Assembly: GCF_015209745.1 (NCBI RefSeq)
Contig: NZ_CP063657.1
Span: forward strand, 1,178,001 to 1,242,000
Direction of reading: 5' to 3'
DNA length: 64,000 nt
From: Lysobacter avium
GTDB lineage: Bacteria; Pseudomonadota; Gammaproteobacteria; Xanthomonadales; Xanthomonadaceae
A program made the translations under genes and the position numbers. Below, piece after piece: positions 53,564-62,380 of the stretch; position 1 is the stretch's first letter; each line of letters starts with the position of its first letter. The notes under the pieces are model-generated. The model saw nothing but the letters and a program-made list of their open reading frames with translations. It ran no database searches and was not told the origin of the DNA.

Positions 53564-53599
53564 ATTGTCGGGTTCGCGTGTTGGCGATCTATCATGACA

Positions 53600-53622
53600 A
53601 GGGCCCGCCAAATGCGGGCCTT
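53600..53622 (+). terminator. Hairpin upstream of the amidohydrolase gene
   Basis: An 8-9 bp stem (GGCCCGC / GCGGGCC core) with a CAAAT loop, 20 bp before the amidohydrolase ATG. The following TTCGTCGTC is T-poor. It may end the previous transcript or act as a leader structure. Confidence 0.3.
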
Positions 53623-53641
53623 CGTCGTCAAAGGGGGTTGC

Positions 53642-55453
53642 ATGGGGAAGTACTCGAACGCGTGGAGGGCGGCATCGCTCGCGCTCCTGCTGGCCAATGG
53701 GATGTCGGGCGCCGCCTTGGCTCGCGACACCGGCCAGACGACCGCAATCACCAACGCGCTGGTCTTTGACGGCACCGGGGGAGCGGCGTATCCGGCAACG
53801 GTGCTGATCCGCAACCAGCGCATCGTCGACGTTGGCCAGGATCTGAAGGTGCCCAAGCGGGCAGTGGTGATCGATGCAGACGGCAAGACGCTCATGCCCG
53901 GGCTGTTCGACCTGCACACGCACTGGACGCCGAATTCCAGCCCGTCCTCCAGCGCGGGCCTGTCGGGGGTCTATCTGGCGGCGGGAGTCACCACCGTCAA
54001 CGATTTCCACCAGGCGCCCGAATCCTACGCGCCCCGGCGCGAATGGCTGGGCAGCATGGCCGCGCCGCATGTCAATTTTGCCGCGCGCATGAGCACGCCA
54101 CTGGGTCACGGGGCCGACTGGGCCGACACGGCCACCACGCGCTGGGTGAATTCGCCGGATGCGGCGCGTCATGCCGTCCGCGAGCTGGCGCCGTACAAGC
54201 CCGACATGATCAAGGTGTTCACCGATGGCTGGCGCTACGGCCACATGCCCGACAACACCAGCATGGATCCGTGGACGTTGACGGCGCTGGTCGAGGAGGC
54301 GCACGCCAACGGACTCAAGGTCGCCACCCACACCGTCACCGCGGAACGGGCGGGATGGGCCGGCGACGCGAAGGTCGACCTGATCGCCCACAGCATCCAG
54401 GACCGCGTGGTGGATGCAGACACCATCGCGCGGCTGAAGGCCGGTGCTACGTTCTACGCGCCGACACTGGCGGTCTACGAGCCGGTCAAGATGGGCAGCT
54501 CGCCGCCGGCCGATCCCGAATCGCCCGCGTTTTTGAGCCGCCAGCGCAATTTCCGCAACGCGATGGAAAACGTTCGCGTGCTGCACGAGGCCGGTGTACC
54601 CATCGCGCTCGGCACCGACGCCGGCATGCCGGGGACGCCCCACGGCGCGGCCACCCTGCGCGAGCTGGAACTGCTCGTCCAGGCGGGCTTGACCCCGGCC
54701 GAGGCACTGCGGGCAGGCACCGCAACCAGCGCTGCAGCCATCGGCTTGCACGGAGACCGCGGCCGCGTCGCCAAGGGCCAGCGCGCCGACCTGTTGCTGG
54801 TGGACGGAAAACCCTGGGAGAACATCCAGGACATCAAGAAGCTCAGCCGCGTCTGGCTGGACGGCCAACTGGTCGTTGGCCCTGGTGTGCATCTGCCGGC
54901 CAGCAACGCGCGCCCATACCCGAAGCCCGAGGTCGCGGGACCGCTGGTCGATGATTTCGAGCGCGCGGACGAGCGCACGGCGCTGGACACACTGCGCACC
55001 GATGACAATGACGGCGGCAACGACCGCACATGGCAATTGACCCGGGTCGTGGTGCGTGACCCAGGCGGACACGCACTTCGGACCATGGCGCGGATGTCCA
55101 GCAAGGATCGCGCCTATGCCGCGGTGGTGCTGCCATTGAGCCGTGGCTCGGTAAAGCCGGTGGACCTGCGCGGCTATCGCGGTGTGCGTTTCGACATCCG
55201 CGGCGAAGACGGAAGCCACGCGCTAATGCTCAAAGGTCTGGAAGGCGGGCGATGGAAGACCGCGATCACCGTGCAGCCGCAATGGCAGCAGGTCAGCGTG
55301 GATTTCACCCAACTGAAGTACGCGCCCTACCGGGTGGTCGAGGGCGAGGACCGGCCATGGCGGGGCGACGATGCCACGGATCTGCAGTTCATCGTTGAAG
55401 GGGACGGCGCGAAGATGCCATGGTTTGAACTCGACAATGTGCGGTTCTACTGA
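53642..55453 (+). CDS. Exported amidohydrolase fused to C-terminal CIA30-like domain
   Basis: 603 residues from ATG 53642. A signal peptide (SLALLLANGMSGAALA) precedes an imidazolonepropionase/prolidase-like amidohydrolase: metal ligands DLHTHW (His92, His94), probable carboxylated Lys191 in DMIKVFTDG, ATHTV (His230), IAHSIQD (His250) and GTDAG (Asp326). From about residue 435 a second domain (VDDFERADERTALDTLRTDD ... LQFIVEGDGAKMPWFELDNVRF) resembles CIA30/carbohydrate-binding jelly rolls. This is a periplasmic hydrolase, substrate unknown. It may be co-transcribed with the next gene (45-bp gap). Confidence 0.85.
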   Translation: MGKYSNAWRAASLALLLANGMSGAALARDTGQTTAITNALVFDGTGGAAYPATVLIRNQRIVDVGQDLKVPKRAVVIDADGKTLMPGLFDLHTHWTPNSSPSSSAGLSGVYLAAGVTTVNDFHQAPESYAPRREWLGSMAAPHVNFAARMSTPLGHGADWADTATTRWVNSPDAARHAVRELAPYKPDMIKVFTDGWRYGHMPDNTSMDPWTLTALVEEAHANGLKVATHTVTAERAGWAGDAKVDLIAHSIQDRVVDADTIARLKAGATFYAPTLAVYEPVKMGSSPPADPESPAFLSRQRNFRNAMENVRVLHEAGVPIALGTDAGMPGTPHGAATLRELELLVQAGLTPAEALRAGTATSAAAIGLHGDRGRVAKGQRADLLLVDGKPWENIQDIKKLSRVWLDGQLVVGPGVHLPASNARPYPKPEVAGPLVDDFERADERTALDTLRTDDNDGGNDRTWQLTRVVVRDPGGHALRTMARMSSKDRAYAAVVLPLSRGSVKPVDLRGYRGVRFDIRGEDGSHALMLKGLEGGRWKTAITVQPQWQQVSVDFTQLKYAPYRVVEGEDRPWRGDDATDLQFIVEGDGAKMPWFELDNVRFY

Positions 55454-55498: not shown

Positions 55499-56992
55499 GT
55501 GAAGTCGATGAGCAAGACAGCCGTGGCAATCCTCGCCGCATTGGCACTGCAGGGTGCGGCCGTCGCCGGACAGCTCGACCCCGCCAATGCCGATCGTGCC
55601 CCCGTGGGCACCACGGCAGCACATGGCCAGCCCTTAATGCAGCGCCTGGACGCCTATGCACCACAGATTATCCGCATGGCCGACCGGATGTGGCAGGAAC
55701 CCGAGCTGGGCTACCTGGAAAACGCGTCATCGGCATTGATGCAGGAGGAGTTGCGCGCCCACGGTTTCCAGATCGAGGCCGGAGTGGCCGGGATGCCGAC
55801 AGCCTTCGTGGCGACCGCCGGCAAGCGCGGCAAGGGACCGGTGATCGGATTGCTGGCGGAAATGGACGCGCTGCCGGGAATGTCGCAGGCCGCGGTGCCG
55901 CAGCGGCAGCCCATCGCCGGCCAGGATCCGGGGCACGCCTGCGGGCATAACCTGTTTGGCGCCGGCACGGTGGGGGCGGCGGTGGCGTTGAAGGAATGGC
56001 TCGACAGCAGTGGCACCGAGGGCGAGATCCGGGTATTCGGCACGCCGGCCGAGGAGGGCGGCTCGGGCAAGGTGTACATGGTCCGCGACGGACTGTTCAA
56101 GGACGTCGACGTGGCGCTGCACTGGCACCCGAACTCGCGGAATTCCGCCGCGCAGAGCATCAGCCTGGCCAACATCAGCGGCAAGTTCCGCTTCAGCGGC
56201 CAGGCCTCACACGCGGCGATGGCGCCGGAGCGTGGACGCTCTGCGCTGGACGGCGTGGAAGCACTGAACCACATGGCCAACATGCTTCGCGAGCACGTGC
56301 CGCAGGAAACCCGCATCCACTACATCATCAGCAACGGCGGGGGGTCAGCGCCCAACGTGGTTCCGGCCTCGGCGGAGGCCTACTACTACGTTCGCCATCC
56401 CGATCCGGTGGTGGTGCGGAGCGTGTTCAAGCGCCTCACCGACGCCGCCGAGGGCGCGGCGCTGGGCACCGGCACCAGCTTTGAATTCGAGCAGACCGGC
56501 GGAGTGTTCAGCCTTCTGCCCAACGACACCCTGGGCAAGGTCATGCATGCCTCACTGCAGCAGGTGGGCGGCGTGGAATACAGCGCGGCGGATGTCGCGT
56601 TCGCCAAAGAGCTGCAGACGCATCTCGAGCAGCAGGTCGATATCAGCGAAGCGGCAAAGATCGCACCGTATTCGGTTGACGGCGACGGCTTTGGATCGAC
56701 CGACGTCGGCGATGTCAGCTGGGCGGTTCCGACGGTCGGCATGGGCGCAGCGACCTGGGTTCCGGGCACGCCCGCGCACAGCTGGCAGGCGGTTGCCGCG
56801 TCGGGCATGGACATCGGCCACAAGGGCGCCGTTGTGGCGGCCAAGGCGCTGTCACTGACGGCGATGCGGTTGTTCTCCGATCCCGGGCTGGTACAGCAGG
56901 CGCGCGCCGAGTTCGACCGACGACGCGGCAAGGACTTCAGCTACGAGCCGCTTCTGCAACGCAAGAATCCGCCACTGGACTACCGCAAATAG
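55499..56992 (+). CDS. Exported M20-family amidohydrolase (AbgB-like)
   Basis: 497 residues with a GTG start preceded by GGAG (ATG 55508 is an alternative). A signal peptide (SKTAVAILAALALQGAAVAG) is followed by the M20D fold: GHACGHN (about 145-151, metal/Cys ligands), PAEEGGSGK with Glu185/186, and FSGQASHAAMAPE in the lid domain. Similar to AbgB/HipO-type hydrolases that split N-acyl or aminobenzoyl amino acids. It follows the amidohydrolase gene and may share its role in periplasmic peptide or amide breakdown. Its stop is 1 bp from the convergent YhhN stop. Confidence 0.9.
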   Translation: MKSMSKTAVAILAALALQGAAVAGQLDPANADRAPVGTTAAHGQPLMQRLDAYAPQIIRMADRMWQEPELGYLENASSALMQEELRAHGFQIEAGVAGMPTAFVATAGKRGKGPVIGLLAEMDALPGMSQAAVPQRQPIAGQDPGHACGHNLFGAGTVGAAVALKEWLDSSGTEGEIRVFGTPAEEGGSGKVYMVRDGLFKDVDVALHWHPNSRNSAAQSISLANISGKFRFSGQASHAAMAPERGRSALDGVEALNHMANMLREHVPQETRIHYIISNGGGSAPNVVPASAEAYYYVRHPDPVVVRSVFKRLTDAAEGAALGTGTSFEFEQTGGVFSLLPNDTLGKVMHASLQQVGGVEYSAADVAFAKELQTHLEQQVDISEAAKIAPYSVDGDGFGSTDVGDVSWAVPTVGMGAATWVPGTPAHSWQAVAASGMDIGHKGAVVAAKALSLTAMRLFSDPGLVQQARAEFDRRRGKDFSYEPLLQRKNPPLDYRK

Positions 56993-56993
56993 C

Positions 56994-57698
56994 TCAGGCG
57001 CCGCGTACGGAATCCGCGATGCACCACTGTGCCGAGTAGTAGCTGGCCAATACCCAGACAATGGCGACAGGAATGTCCGTAACGAACCGGTTCCATGCAA
57101 GCAATGTGTCGCTGAGGATGAAGAGTGCGCCGCCGAGGGCCGCGATCCGCGCCGGGTGGGCTGTCTGGACCGGAGTGTTGCGCAGACGCCACCCGCGTGC
57201 CGCAGCCAGCGCCGCCATCACCGCAATGACGGCCACATACGCCACTACCGGTGGTTGCAGCGCTGTGGGAACACTCGGCAGCAAACCGACAAGGACCAAC
57301 GCCGAAACCGACGCGTACGCGAGCAGTGCAACTGCGGTCGCGCCAGTTGACGCTCCGCGTGCAAACGCCGTGGCGTACGCAATGTGCGCCAACAGGAAGG
57401 AGACGAGCCCGGGTACGAACCAGTCGCCTCGCAGCATCAGGAATGTATCGCCGACTGCGGAAAGGACAAGTCCCACGGCGATCAAGCGCTGATATCCGCT
57501 GGCAACGACAGGTGCGGCGCCAAGCACCATCCACAGCAGAAGAAGGGTGGTCAAAGGCTTGGTGACGTAGTGCAGCCATCGTGCGTTACCGTCAAGGAGC
57601 GCACTGACAATCGCCAGGGCCGCGCTGGCGGCGACCAGAAGCGCGAATGTCGTTCGGGGCGCTGTCACTCCAGGTGCTGGCGCTCGAGGTTCGTTCAT
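56994..57698 (-). CDS. YhhN/TMEM86 family membrane protein (lysoplasmalogenase-like)
   Basis: 234 residues with about eight membrane segments. The catalytic acids of the family lie in AVGDTFLMLR and FILSDTLLAWNRF. Characterised members hydrolyse the vinyl-ether bond of lysoplasmalogens. It is the last cistron of a four-gene set. Its ATG overlaps the previous stop (ATGA at 57695-57698), so it is translationally coupled to it. Confidence 0.88.
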   Translation of the reverse strand: MNEPRAPAPGVTAPRTTFALLVAASAALAIVSALLDGNARWLHYVTKPLTTLLLLWMVLGAAPVVASGYQRLIAVGLVLSAVGDTFLMLRGDWFVPGLVSFLLAHIAYATAFARGASTGATAVALLAYASVSALVLVGLLPSVPTALQPPVVAYVAVIAVMAALAAARGWRLRNTPVQTAHPARIAALGGALFILSDTLLAWNRFVTDIPVAIVWVLASYYSAQWCIADSVRGA

Positions 57699-58618
57699 GG
57701 CTGCGGACTTTGCACATCCGGTTTTTCCTTCGTCCCGCCGGATCGCGTCTGCGCAGCCTTCAACCGCATCAAATGACCGTGCAACATTTCCGTCGACAAC
57801 CCATGCAGTGACAGCCGGTAGCCGGCGCGCAGGGTGGACATCGGCACCAGTGGATGTTTGTTGTTGACCAGTCCGAGGTGTTCCCGGGCATCCAGCAGGG
57901 TGGCGACGTAGATGCCGATCGTTTCATCCAGTTGCAGTGAGTTCGTGGCCCGCCAGAAATCGTCATCGCTCAGGAACAGTTGATACACCGGGGTGAACAG
58001 CTCGATCGCGCTCTGCAGGTCGAGGAAGTTGCGGCGTCGGTTGGGCATGTCCTCGATCCGCAGATGATCGGGCTGGTGGATCATTGAGAAGTCTGGAGTG
58101 TCGACCTTCTCGAGCTGCTTGCCACTGGCGCGCAGCGCGCTGTTCAGCCGGATCACGAAGTTGTAGAGGTTGAGGTCGTGGACCAGGTACATGTCTGGCG
58201 CAACGTCGGCGATTTTTTCCGGTCGCAGCGGATTGGTCTCGATATCGACCGGTGCATTGGCCGCGATGAAGGACAGCGCCTGCGAACCGATGCAGAAGTG
58301 GCGCAGGATCAGCCAGTTGGCCTCCGGGCGGATGAAGTTCTCCATGCCCCAGGCAAGCAGCCGGTGCAGCGTCGGGGAAAATGCCAGCTTGCGCGGAGTG
58401 AATACCTTCAATATCTGCAGCAGAATGATAGTCAGCCGCGCAAACGGACGGATGAAGGGCAGCACGTACTGCCGTGACCGCGAGCTGGAGTCCACAAGCC
58501 AGGCGTGTTTCACCGCCGGGTCAATGGGCGTGGACTGGTCCAGGTACAGCGCAAGCCACGGGCTGGGGTCGCGTGGGTCGTGCTCCTGCTCAAGGAAGTC
58601 GGGGGGCCGCTGGTTCAT
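57695..58618 (-). CDS. Uncharacterised protein of the ketosynthase operon
   Basis: 307 residues, soluble or peripheral, with a hydrophobic stretch near 55-75 (PFARLTIILLQILKVF). Conserved-looking features: NWLILRHFCIGSQALSFIA (about 101-119), HDLNLYNFVIRLN, and several His and Asp that could bind metal (DFSMIHQPDHLRIED). No family I can name with confidence. Both ends overlap neighbours by ATGA, so it must be produced with the ketosynthase and the YhhN protein. It could be a partner or carrier of the lipid product. Confidence 0.7.
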   Translation of the reverse strand: MNQRPPDFLEQEHDPRDPSPWLALYLDQSTPIDPAVKHAWLVDSSSRSRQYVLPFIRPFARLTIILLQILKVFTPRKLAFSPTLHRLLAWGMENFIRPEANWLILRHFCIGSQALSFIAANAPVDIETNPLRPEKIADVAPDMYLVHDLNLYNFVIRLNSALRASGKQLEKVDTPDFSMIHQPDHLRIEDMPNRRRNFLDLQSAIELFTPVYQLFLSDDDFWRATNSLQLDETIGIYVATLLDAREHLGLVNNKHPLVPMSTLRAGYRLSLHGLSTEMLHGHLMRLKAAQTRSGGTKEKPDVQSPQP

Positions 58619-60528
58619 GCAGAGGTCTCCGGAAGGGGCGTGACGTGCTGGAACTGCATCAGGTACATCTCCGCGGTGCGTTTGGCGGTGTCCAGGATAT
58701 CCATCGCCAGTTGTCCGTCGCTGTCGTGCTCCAGGGCGATCTCCACGGCCCGCAGCCAGCGCAACAGATGATGCTGGTCATTCTCGCCGTGGTATTCGAG
58801 AAAGCGGAATGCGTCGCGCGGAACGTCTTTGAGCGTCGCCTTGATCAGCGGAAGCAGGGCAGGAATGATCCGCTGTCCCGTGCCTTCAATGATGTAGATC
58901 GCGCCCAGCAGGCCGATAGGGTTCTCGGTCGCAGCGAGTGCGTGCAGATAGGCGTTCAGCGCCTCGCCGCCGGGATTGCGTTTGAGGCGGTTGATGTCCG
59001 CCGCCGGACCGCCGGCTTTGCCGTAGTCGCTGAACAGGATTGCGAAATCGTCCTGCTCCTCGCCTGCATGGGTCTCAATCAGCGCTGCGAGCGACTCGAA
59101 GGGGGCGGTGACGCTGGCGGCACCCTCGCGCATCCACAGGCTGCCCTCGCGCACCTGCGGAATCCAGTGACTCATCCAGCTCAGGTAGTCGGCGCGGGTC
59201 CACTCGCCTTCGCGCAGGCGTCGAACCACGGGAGTGCGCCAGACCCGCGAGCGGTAGTCGTGCCACACGCCGGCCAGTTTTCCGAGCAGGTCGCGCAGCG
59301 CTTCAGGCGCGTCAGCGGGGTCGTGCGGCGCGGAAACCGAGGTGTCCAGCAAAGACGTGGCGGCAGCGATCGCACAGTGCGGTTCCGGAACGGCCAGCGG
59401 GGCGTCGGCGGCTTCGACATCGATCAGCACGAAGGACGCAGTGAAGCGGCCGGACTCCGGGATAAAACAGAGAATCTGCTGGCCAGCCTCGATCTCGCGG
59501 GTGCGCAGGAACTCGTCAAGCATGATGAAGATAGACGCCGCGCCCGTGTTGCCACGCGTCGCCAGGTTGCTGTACCAGCGCTCCCGCGGGATCGCCAGGC
59601 CGGCTTTTTGCATCAGGTCGTCAACGACCGGGGCAAACTTCTCCGAGGAGTAGTGGCACAGGAAATGGTCGACGTGCTCCGGGTTGATATCCCCGGCCTG
59701 CACCAGACGTACGTACTCGTGGATGCAAACGTCGAACAGGTTCGGCAGCAGCCGGATGTCCTGGCGCAACATCAGGGCGCCGTCGGCTTCCGCGTCCTGC
59801 CAGCGGTCGTAATCGAGGTGGGAGCGGCCCTCTTTGGCCGAGAGTCCCAGCTGCATGCACACCGGGTAGTCGCCGGAAAACGAGCGCTGATGGATGAAGC
59901 GCAACTTCAGCCGCAGCTTCGCGTCGGGGTTGGGGCGGGAAGACAAAAGCACCGCGCCGGCACCGTCGGAGAGCATCCAACGCAGGAAGTGGGCATCGAA
60001 GTCGGCGTCGTAGCCGCAGCCGGCAAATCGGGACCGCTTGAACAGCCGCGACGGCATTTCCGCAGCGGCCACCAGGGCGTGCTCGTGGGATCCCAGCTCG
60101 ATCGCAGACGCCGCCGCCTCCCAGGCCGCGATCCCGGACGCGCAGATCCCGTGCGAGGTCAGGGTCTGCATTGGCGGCCCGTTGAGTTCACCCAGCACCA
60201 TGTTGGCGAAGCCGGGCAGCAGTGCGTCGCCGCCGCACCCGCCCGTGGCGAGCATGCCGACGTTGTCCAACGGCTGGGTTGCGCTATGCAGGCACTCGCT
60301 GATCGCACGTGCGGCCATTGCCTCGGGCGACGTGTGGGTGGTGCCGTCTTCGTTGATGCCGTAGTGCCGGGCGGAGATCCCGTTCTGATCCAGGATGCGC
60401 TGCTTGATGCGCGATGACAGCTGGTTCAGTGGCGCGACAAACGCATCCATGCCAGCGTTGTCGATCGCGGGGCCGGGCAGGTGACGTGCGTGCCCGGTGA
60501 TGTAGACGTTGTTGAAGCGCGTGGTCAT
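58615..60528 (-). CDS. StlD/DarB-like ketosynthase fused to haem-oxygenase-like di-iron domain
   Basis: 637 residues from ATG 60528. The N-terminal 380 residues are a KASIII-type ketosynthase of the StlD/DarB group: nucleophile Cys129 in TSHGICASG, His292 in CHYSSEKF, and Asn327 in RGNTGAAS. From about 411 to 625 a haem-oxygenase-like (PF14518-type) helix bundle follows, with candidate iron ligands Glu468, His487, Glu490/491, Glu548 and the H-x3-D-x2-H motif EYHGENDQHH (His580, Asp584, His587). The fusion suggests acyl condensation followed by oxidative modification of the product. It is coupled on both sides by ATGA overlaps. Homology to dialkylresorcinol enzymes is remembered, not tested. 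Confidence 0.85.
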   Translation of the reverse strand: MTTRFNNVYITGHARHLPGPAIDNAGMDAFVAPLNQLSSRIKQRILDQNGISARHYGINEDGTTHTSPEAMAARAISECLHSATQPLDNVGMLATGGCGGDALLPGFANMVLGELNGPPMQTLTSHGICASGIAAWEAAASAIELGSHEHALVAAAEMPSRLFKRSRFAGCGYDADFDAHFLRWMLSDGAGAVLLSSRPNPDAKLRLKLRFIHQRSFSGDYPVCMQLGLSAKEGRSHLDYDRWQDAEADGALMLRQDIRLLPNLFDVCIHEYVRLVQAGDINPEHVDHFLCHYSSEKFAPVVDDLMQKAGLAIPRERWYSNLATRGNTGAASIFIMLDEFLRTREIEAGQQILCFIPESGRFTASFVLIDVEAADAPLAVPEPHCAIAAATSLLDTSVSAPHDPADAPEALRDLLGKLAGVWHDYRSRVWRTPVVRRLREGEWTRADYLSWMSHWIPQVREGSLWMREGAASVTAPFESLAALIETHAGEEQDDFAILFSDYGKAGGPAADINRLKRNPGGEALNAYLHALAATENPIGLLGAIYIIEGTGQRIIPALLPLIKATLKDVPRDAFRFLEYHGENDQHHLLRWLRAVEIALEHDSDGQLAMDILDTAKRTAEMYLMQFQHVTPLPETSA

Positions 60529-61328
60529 TCTCGGGAATCCTTGACGTGCGACGGGGCGGCCAGATGGTCTGCGGCGCCCGCCGCAATGGTGGTGCCTGCC
60601 AGACGGTCGAACACGTCCAGCAGGAAGCCGTAGTTGCCGTGATAGACAGCGTGATGGAGATGATGGCGTCGGCTGGCCGCGAGCGGGCCGCGAGCGGGCG
60701 CGTGTTGGCTGAACTCGTAGTTCGCGTGCCCCAGGTTGTTGAGCACGATGCTCATCAGCGGAAGGCAGAACAGCGCGATCGGGCTGAAGTCGTGCACCAG
60801 CATCGGCAGGATCGGCACGCTGCCCAGCAGCAGGGCTTCCACCGGGTGGAAGGCATAAGTGGCAAACGGGGTCGGCGTCAGCGAGCGGTGGTGATCCGCG
60901 TGGAACCGCCGCAGCGGCCGTGAGTGCAGCAACCGGTGGCAGAGATAAAAGTGCAGCTCGTTCCACAGGAACAGGGAGAAAAGCTCGACAGCGATGCGCG
61001 GCCCCGACGCCTCATACGCGAGTCCGGCCCAACCGCTGCGTAGCAACCACCACGGCACCAGGACACCTACGCCGAACAGCAGGATCGAACCACAGGATTC
61101 AGCGATCTCACGACTCAGCTGCCCTGGACGCAGGGGCCGCTGATCGAGCACACGGCCGAAGCCGACGCGCGGCAACAGGGAGCGCGTCAGCCACCAGGTC
61201 AGCGCGCCGGTCACGAAATACAGCGCAGCGAAGTAGAGCGTCGCCCACAGAACTACTTGCCAGGGAGGCAGCGCGACGAAGTTGTGAGCGAAGCGGGTAA
61301 TGCCGGTGGGGTCCAGACGTGGTTCCAT
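60525..61328 (-). CDS. Sterol desaturase/fatty-acid hydroxylase family membrane protein
   Basis: 267 residues from ATG 61328 (a longer frame exists to 61499, but the protein-like part starts here). Hydrophobic segments at about 27-48, 80-97 and 160-195. The histidine boxes of the di-iron membrane hydroxylases are all present: HFYLCHRLLH (His126, 131, 135), HADHH (His143, 146, 147) and HHLHH (His222-226). It is first of the ATGA-coupled operon. Relatives hydroxylate or desaturate lipids and ether lipids. The exact substrate is unknown. Confidence 0.9.
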   Translation of the reverse strand: MEPRLDPTGITRFAHNFVALPPWQVVLWATLYFAALYFVTGALTWWLTRSLLPRVGFGRVLDQRPLRPGQLSREIAESCGSILLFGVGVLVPWWLLRSGWAGLAYEASGPRIAVELFSLFLWNELHFYLCHRLLHSRPLRRFHADHHRSLTPTPFATYAFHPVEALLLGSVPILPMLVHDFSPIALFCLPLMSIVLNNLGHANYEFSQHAPARGPLAASRRHHLHHAVYHGNYGFLLDVFDRLAGTTIAAGAADHLAAPSHVKDSRE

Positions 61329-61560
61329 CCATGGCTGGCTGGATTTGTGGCCAAAGGGTACCCGTCGGGCGCATGGCTGGCCAATGGTCGCCGGAGTTGG
61401 GTCTTTGCTCTTTCCTCGCCCAGCGGCGCCGGGGTTGTCGCCGGGCTCGCACTCGCCATGACCGTGTCCCGCGGTTTGGTCGTCGTTGCCTTGACGCACG
61501 TCAGGGCGCGGCCAAGAGCAGGGACCAACAATATTCCGGTCCCCACAATGGAGTCATCGC

Positions 61561-61827
61561 ATGGCAATCGGCCTGGATCCGGAACCCAACGTCCACGTGT
61601 TTGATGCGCGCGGAATAGCAAGGCGATTCCGCCACTCGGCGATTTTCGGCGCGTTGGGTGCACTGCGCAACGGCGAGACGATGCGCTTCGTCAATGATCA
61701 CGATCCGATCCCGCTGCTGGGGCAGCTGGATGCCCGTTTTGGCGAGCATCTGAGCGTTACCTACCGTCAGCGCGAGCCCAGCGGAGTGGTGATCGACTTC
61801 GGCATCAGCGGCCTGCCAGAGGAATAG
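61561..61827 (+). CDS. DUF2249-domain protein
   Basis: 88 residues, with TGGAG before ATG 61561. Pattern: RHSAIFGALGALRNGETMRFVNDHDPIPLL is the DUF2249 signature (GE-x-x-x-xV-NDHDP-x-PL). These small proteins are associated with nitrogen-oxide and redox metabolism. No metal cluster is obvious beyond the NDHD motif. Divergent from the sterol desaturase operon (232 bp with no other gene seen). Confidence 0.88.
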   Translation: MAIGLDPEPNVHVFDARGIARRFRHSAIFGALGALRNGETMRFVNDHDPIPLLGQLDARFGEHLSVTYRQREPSGVVIDFGISGLPEE

Positions 61828-61861
61828 CTATTCCCAACCACGTGCCAAGCGCTTCGGGGAT

Positions 61862-62380
61862 CTACTTGACGTCGAGTTCCGCGTCGGCGGCAATCGCATC
61901 AAGCTGGGCGGCAAAATCAAGCACGTTCGCGCGCTGGCTCTCGAGGTCGGCCGCGACGGTGAAGTCGTTGGATTCGATGGAATCCTTCAGCGTGGCGACC
62001 CGGGCCAGGTCGATCCCGCCTGCATCCTTCTGGATCTGACCCAGCGAGTCCGCGGCTTCGTGCAAGCGCGTGTTGGCGATGCCGAAATTGCGCTGGTCCA
62101 GATCGACGGCAGTACGGTACAGGTCCACCCGCGCGCGCATCAGATGGTTGCGGTTCTGCACTTTCGCCAGGTCGGCCCTCGCCGCGCCAAGCGTCTGGTT
62201 GCCCTGCTCGATCTGTTGCTCGTAATGCACCTTCTGCGTCGCCAACTCCTTGCGGCCCTGGCTCAGCCCCACGTAGTACAGGACGCCTGCGATCAGAATG
62301 AATACCCCGACGGCAATGAGCATCGCCGTCGTGGACACGAGGTGACCCCGTCGGGGCGATGTTGTGGCTGTCTCGTTCAT
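61862..62380 (-). CDS. Membrane-anchored coiled-coil protein, unknown
   Basis: 172 residues. One N-terminal membrane segment (TTAMLIAVGVFILIAGVLYYVGL, about 17-39) is followed by a long charged helix that should form a coiled coil (QKVHYEQQIEQGNQTLGAARADLAKVQNRNHLM). No enzyme motif. Likely a periplasm-facing helix or a scaffold. The gene ends 34 bp from the convergent DUF2249 stop. Confidence 0.65.
   Translation of the reverse strand: MNETATTSPRRGHLVSTTAMLIAVGVFILIAGVLYYVGLSQGRKELATQKVHYEQQIEQGNQTLGAARADLAKVQNRNHLMRARVDLYRTAVDLDQRNFGIANTRLHEAADSLGQIQKDAGGIDLARVATLKDSIESNDFTVAADLESQRANVLDFAAQLDAIAADAELDVK

Follow-up and report, generated by a model that had tools for sequence, protein, structure and literature searches.

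A recurrent bacterial gene cassette pairing a ketosynthase–haem-oxygenase-like fusion with DUF6999, apparently an undescribed route to an unusual lipid

A gene cassette that recurs in many bacteria appears to encode an undescribed pathway to some unusual lipid. Read from gene content and order, the conserved set is membrane hydroxylase – fatty-acid desaturase – ketosynthase (KS) fused to a haem-oxygenase-like (HO) domain – DUF6999. A version of it lies in the window, i.e. the whole 64,000-nt stretch of the 2.85-Mb Lysobacter avium genome that was analysed, within a four-gene operon that a preliminary description had singled out as a candidate new system. No account of such a set was found in the open-licence PMC literature.

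The operon runs along the minus strand, and all four open reading frames were recovered where the preliminary description had placed them; by protein similarity, the closest relatives of their products sit in Lysobacter/Novilysobacter. The first gene (60525..61328) encodes a 267-aa membrane protein of the FA_hydroxylase/sterol-desaturase family (PF04116, 81.4 bits against a cut-off of 31). The second (58615..60528) encodes the 637-aa KS-HO fusion, with matches to ACP_syn_III_C (42 bits) and Haem_oxygenas_2 (PF14518, 29.1 bits, only just above the cut-off of 28.9). Residues 1-372 of the fusion (59413..60528) form a StlD/DarB-like ketosynthase domain with the triad C129/H292/N327, residues 373-404 (59317..59412) an interdomain linker whose predicted confidence is poor (pLDDT <50 at residues 382-396), and residues 405-627 (58648..59316) a haem-oxygenase-like, probably diiron, domain. 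The 307-aa DUF6999 protein (57695..58618; PF22523, 419.6 bits, cut-off 27) comes third, and a 234-aa YhhN-family membrane protein (56994..57698), matching PF07947 along its length at 146.9 bits, comes last.

Consecutive genes overlap by 4 nt, with the sequence ATGA at each of the three junctions as had been described: hydroxylase/KS at 60525..60528, KS-HO/DUF6999 at 58615..58618 and DUF6999/YhhN at 57695..57698. The KS-to-DUF6999 overlap is common to 45 of 76 relatives among the best 80 of 490 loci (see below; start codons were chosen by script), and the hydroxylase-to-KS overlap recurs in all three congeners fetched with the operon. As judged from this recurrence, these two overlaps are not mere chance; the DUF6999-YhhN overlap is missing in the three congeners, which have no YhhN there. 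The overlaps suggest translational coupling only, and the earlier claim that the four proteins are made in fixed proportion goes beyond them. Upstream of the hydroxylase, several hundred bases (61390-61862) are largely missing in the three congeners, and the promoter region of the window species may differ from theirs. On the other side, an M20-type amidohydrolase (55499-56992) and an Amidohydro_1 protein (53594-55453), both assigned by Pfam, lie on the opposite strand and point at the operon; the end of the M20 gene has an identical position in the window and the three congeners.

DUF6999 is encoded in three of nine congeners, 19 of 149 family genomes and nine of 398 phylum genomes, the last two counts taking in the window genome. 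KS, HO and DUF6999 co-occur in all 30 genomes examined and are contiguous in all 29 loci from the other DUF6999 genomes; a hydroxylase is present at 19 of these loci and absent from the locus in the remaining 10. A one-genome-per-species scan found 490 stretches encoding DUF6999 relatives; the best 80 were analysed, so the sample leans to near relatives, and at least 13 of these loci are also among the 29. In the best 80 of 490, the order hydroxylase-desaturase-KS-HO-DUF6999 was found 64 times and the window's type, hydroxylase-KS-HO-DUF6999 without desaturase, eight times. Smaller groups were KS-HO-DUF6999 alone (three loci, two on contigs of ~3 kb), desaturase-KS-HO-DUF6999 (two), hydroxylase-DUF6999 (two) and HO-DUF6999 (one, on a 3.9-kb contig beginning inside the operon). 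KS-HO-DUF6999 is thus found in 77 of the 80 and is, as far as gene order tells, the invariable part of the cassette. The two hydroxylase-DUF6999 loci are both from Variovorax (L086 and L089), and each genome has KS-HO elsewhere, with a desaturase adjoining it. All four genes have therefore outlasted a break of the operon, which argues for function and not mere neighbourhood.

At E 1e-8, a profile of the HO domain (A4) found matches in 39 of the 149 family genomes and in 81 of the 398 phylum genomes, with at most 19 (family) or seven (phylum) candidates scored per genome. Its strong matches, at least 343 bits in the family and at least 301 bits in the phylum, fall in exactly the DUF6999 genomes; at least nine of the 16 profile rows were taken from genomes of these draws, and their matches are given by construction. 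The next-best scores are 83 and 90 bits, respectively, and the two groups are clearly parted; in genomes G536, G512 and G449 a single TGA lies within the match. The StlD/DarB model at E 1e-40 hit, within the family draw, the same 19 genomes as DUF6999 and no others. No fifth conserved gene emerged among 48 of the best 80 loci (of 490), which carry 11 genus labels: flanking families reach at most three labels, all Lysobacteraceae. In genome-level searches DUF6999 and a StlD/DarB-like KS both match in a control genome, that of the laboratory species Caulobacter vibrioides.

KS and HO form one protein in all 76 scorable loci among the best 80 of 490. In L039, L040 and Pseudoalteromonas L158 they are neighbouring but separate genes with the order unchanged, and the HO gene or domain directly follows KS in every examined locus having both. 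Of 32 KS domains placed in a tree, the 15 from fusions group together with support 100/100, and 12 DarB-like rows make up a second group; the fused side also takes the three unfused rows together with DarB-like L195 and Streptomyces L178, the long branches L039, L178, L179 and L195 being unsurely placed. The tree is most simply explained if the fusion arose once. The two motifs pointed out earlier proved constant: the triad C129/H292/N327 is invariant in 28/28 aligned fusions and all 32 tree rows, and H580-x3-D584-x2-H587 in 28/28 aligned fusions. Two other gene models were rejected: (i) in several GC-rich loci KS is preceded by very long ORFs, which suggested a triple desaturase-KS-HO fusion and were taken as chance read-through because the desaturase and KS frames differ in Vulcaniibacterium L069, where the comparison was made; (ii) an antisense 'conserved ORF' that lies between the hydroxylase and KS (cluster 5) was interpreted as the shadow of a desaturase gene.

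The C-terminal bundle of the fusion carries the candidate metal ligands H487, E491, E548, H580, D584 and H587, by sequence a putative 3-His/3-carboxylate (3H/3C) set. All six are invariant in a 16-row alignment that takes in two unfused versions, so that relatives retain the candidate iron ligands. The domain has a profile match to PDB 3dde (E 2.4e-11), and the same residue types are aligned there at all six positions. A 3H/3C set is reported for most haem-oxygenase-like dimetal enzymes in a review (PMC13108848). In the model of the fusion, the HO region is all-helical; the structure matches listed for the fusion are KS rows. The separate HO protein of Pseudoalteromonas L158 gave no PF14518 match.

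The 307-residue protein had been described as lacking a named role; no function is indeed assigned to it, while a family name, Pfam DUF6999, does exist. We found the name in no paper of the open-licence PMC literature. Its AlphaFold2 model is all-helical (pLDDT 82), and a structure search with it gave no convincing structural relative. H107, H147, D148, D200, D231, H272 and E277 are invariant in 14/14 rows of an alignment spanning fused and unfused versions, a distant unfused one included. Such constancy of His, Asp and Glu residues even in a distant member hints that the protein may have an active or metal site and be more than a scaffold.

The window hydroxylase keeps H126/H131/H135, H143/H146/H147, H201 and H222/H225/H226, invariant in 11/11 aligned proteins. 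Its superfamily, FA_hydroxylase, also includes alkyl-ether monooxygenase. Most of the best 80 of 490 loci have a desaturase gene between hydroxylase and KS; in six of the loci given to Pfam, the ORF that immediately precedes KS is a PF00487 desaturase, the pre-KS ORFs of L039 and L040 having no Pfam match, and its His clusters are kept in nine aligned rows, two of them identical. A search that found both of its positive controls detected no operon-type desaturase anywhere in the genomes of the window species, the nine congeners, or G020, G507 and G514, which also have desaturase-less operons; nor was one found in the hydroxylase-less genomes G449 and G511. The simplest reading is that the desaturase was lost in the window's genus. 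Two variants may be recorded here. A Lysobacteraceae locus (L056:11886-13732) lacks a hydroxylase and has two PF00487 desaturases in a row ahead of KS-HO. Before the unfused KS, HO and DUF6999 genes of Pseudoalteromonas L158 (L158:5621-6178) and of L040 (L040:11941-12507) stands a His-rich, membrane-like protein of 185-188 aa; the two are 64% identical, have no Pfam match, and are possibly stand-ins for the hydroxylase/desaturase.

By structure comparison, the nearest fold to the window KS is StlD. Its scores lie below the curated NCBIfam cut-offs (PRK06816, 305 vs 450 bits; resorcinol_DarB, 243 vs 550), the latter a strict one, since none of 274 class genomes reaches it; and none of the 19 Lysobacteraceae matches to the StlD/DarB model reaches 450 bits. 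The KS therefore need not make the same ring as StlD or DarB. Among the 274 class genomes, the DarB model scored 16 at 387-533 bits and three at 244-255 bits, the low group being the window genome, G120 (another cassette genome) and G574. We call the 16 'DarB-like' on the basis of L180 (621 vs the StlD/DarB cut-off of 450) and of a neighbouring DarA-like gene.

That neighbour, of about 300 codons, lies near 14 of the 16 DarB-like loci; one of the other two loci starts at a contig end. NCBIfam gives it no name, and its product may be flavodoxin-like. It was taken as putative DarA by analogy with the darA-darB gene pairing described in PMC3949708. A DarA profile, positive in 4/4 controls (which had supplied some of its rows), found no match in 29 of 30 cassette genomes, the window genome included, nor in G574. 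The exception, Variovorax G416, has a DarA match with an adjoining DarB-sized KS in a record of the same strain; holding both the cassette and a DarA/DarB-like pair, this genome suggests that the two may make different things. Absence of DarA would be expected were its oxidation step handled by the HO domain, and is consistent with that idea without proving it. A Streptomyces plasmid (L178:6703-14349) encodes a DarB-like KS with two ACPs, an FAD-dependent monooxygenase, an SCP2-domain protein, FabF and a P450; this cluster is a different DarB-like pathway.

What the cassette does can be stated with decreasing assurance. KS-HO and DUF6999 very probably act as one functional unit. It is rather probable, from the domains present, that a ketosynthase product derived from fatty acids undergoes diiron oxidation. 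Our best reading is a pathway to a resorcinol/cyclohexanedione-type lipid, in which an O2-dependent diiron domain oxidises as DarA does elsewhere; the exact ring chemistry given here, drawn by analogy, is tentative. KS would take an acyl group on C129 and condense two fatty-acid-derived thioesters in the fashion of StlD/DarB, giving a 2,5-dialkyl-cyclohexane-1,3-dione or its 4-carboxylate. DarB-type ring formation has a carboxylate intermediate. The diiron domain, acting in cis on the KS product, would use O2 to bring the ring to the resorcinol level, replacing DarA. A plausible route is an UndA-like oxidative decarboxylation, in which the ring carboxylate and a neighbouring hydrogen would be lost to leave a ring double bond. 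That DarB forms rings of this type is attributed to Fuchs 2013 in PMC3949708 and PMC3992019. UndA itself attacks a fatty acid at C3-H or at its carboxylate in an O2-dependent reaction that yields a 1-alkene and CO2, according to a review (PMC13108848); by analogy, the same reaction type on a cyclohexanedione carboxylate would introduce the double bond that a resorcinol ring requires. In the membrane, the alkyl chains would be altered by the FA_hydroxylase and, in loci that retain it, by the desaturase, and DUF6999, the obligate partner, would probably be a second catalytic or a membrane-docking protein. The proposal in full, that a single polypeptide combines DarB-type C-C ring formation with UndA-like aromatisation to give a dialkylresorcinol-type lipid without DarA, with DUF6999 as a new enzyme or scaffold that the route cannot do without, is put forward with low confidence.

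A possible though doubtful alternative is that an ordinary dialkylresorcinol or cyclohexanedione arises as from DarB, and that the HO-like domain is not the aromatase but an oxygenase that tailors the product afterwards (by hydroxylating ring or chain, or by cleavage). The StlD fold of the KS and its position in the tree, next to the DarB-like rows, would suit this, as would the many reactions that haem-oxygenase-like dimetal oxidases (HDOs) perform (PMC13108848), and an unrelated enzyme elsewhere in the genome could stand in for DarA; against it are the lack of DarA in 29/30 cassette genomes and the position of HO directly after KS wherever both were examined. An OleA- or pyrone-type head-to-head acyl condensation followed by diiron oxidation, giving a long-chain ketone, an alkene or a pyrone-like signal in place of a resorcinol-type ring lipid, seems unlikely.

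Of the four genes that the preliminary description grouped together, KS-HO and DUF6999 are strongly co-conserved and the hydroxylase usually accompanies them; YhhN is not part of the conserved set. Among 36 genomes searched (30 with DUF6999 and six congeners without it) YhhN was found in 12: the window copy alone adjoins the operon, and in 11 of the other 35 genomes the gene lies elsewhere, away from the cassette. It was detected nowhere in the genomes of the nine congeners, and near the cassette in none of the 29 loci (tblastn, one query) and none of the best 80 of 490 (tblastn, five queries). The window segment 56986..57745, which holds YhhN and the tail of DUF6999, has no counterpart in the three congeners; these have ~80 bp in its place and match the window on both flanks. 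YhhN is, on this comparison, a lineage-specific addition outside the conserved system. The earlier idea of making and recycling an ether lipid, in which YhhN would be the lysoplasmalogenase and the hydroxylase an alkyl-ether enzyme, thereby loses its main support, and we reject it as a conserved system and hold it very improbable: in its favour are the 4-nt YhhN/DUF6999 overlap, the superfamily of the hydroxylase and a YhhN member reported to have lysoplasmalogenase activity (PMC9052158), against it the distribution of YhhN and the fact that no other cassette member is shown to be an ether-lipid enzyme.

The DUF6999 marker is widespread, with 490 stretches at one genome per species, the best 80 of which include Lysobacter, Luteimonas, Variovorax, Achromobacter and Bordetella, and the cassette supplies it with a precise context. 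It also lends itself readily to testing whether a haem-oxygenase-like diiron enzyme acts on a ketosynthase product. If true, the preferred reading would mean a new way to resorcinol-type lipids, and would give haem-oxygenase-like diiron enzymes a new class of reaction.

Among known systems, the YhhN/TMEM86 lysoplasmalogenases resemble the window operon in that its last protein belongs to their family (a match from which the activity is predicted), and differ in that this protein is not co-conserved with the cassette. With the membrane hydroxylase and desaturase families PF04116 and PF00487 the cassette enzymes share intact His clusters; the window hydroxylase is without a specific characterised relative (OlsE, 19 bits; no meaningful PDB sequence match). 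HDOs such as UndA, SznF, BesC and CADD share with the fusion an HO-like domain with three His and three carboxylates, PDB 3dde being the nearest solved relative by sequence. The cassette domain differs in being fused to a ketosynthase; the words 'ketosynthase', 'fused' and 'fusion' gave no hit in a 2026 HDO review (PMC13108848). Closest are StlD and the DarA/DarB dialkylresorcinol route (flexirubin, arcuflavin), which share the KS superfamily, triad and fold. In contrast to these, the cassette KS branches off on its own next to DarB, stays under the curated cut-offs and is fused to HO; and, with no DarA in 29/30 genomes, the cassette is joined instead to DUF6999 and membrane His-cluster enzymes.
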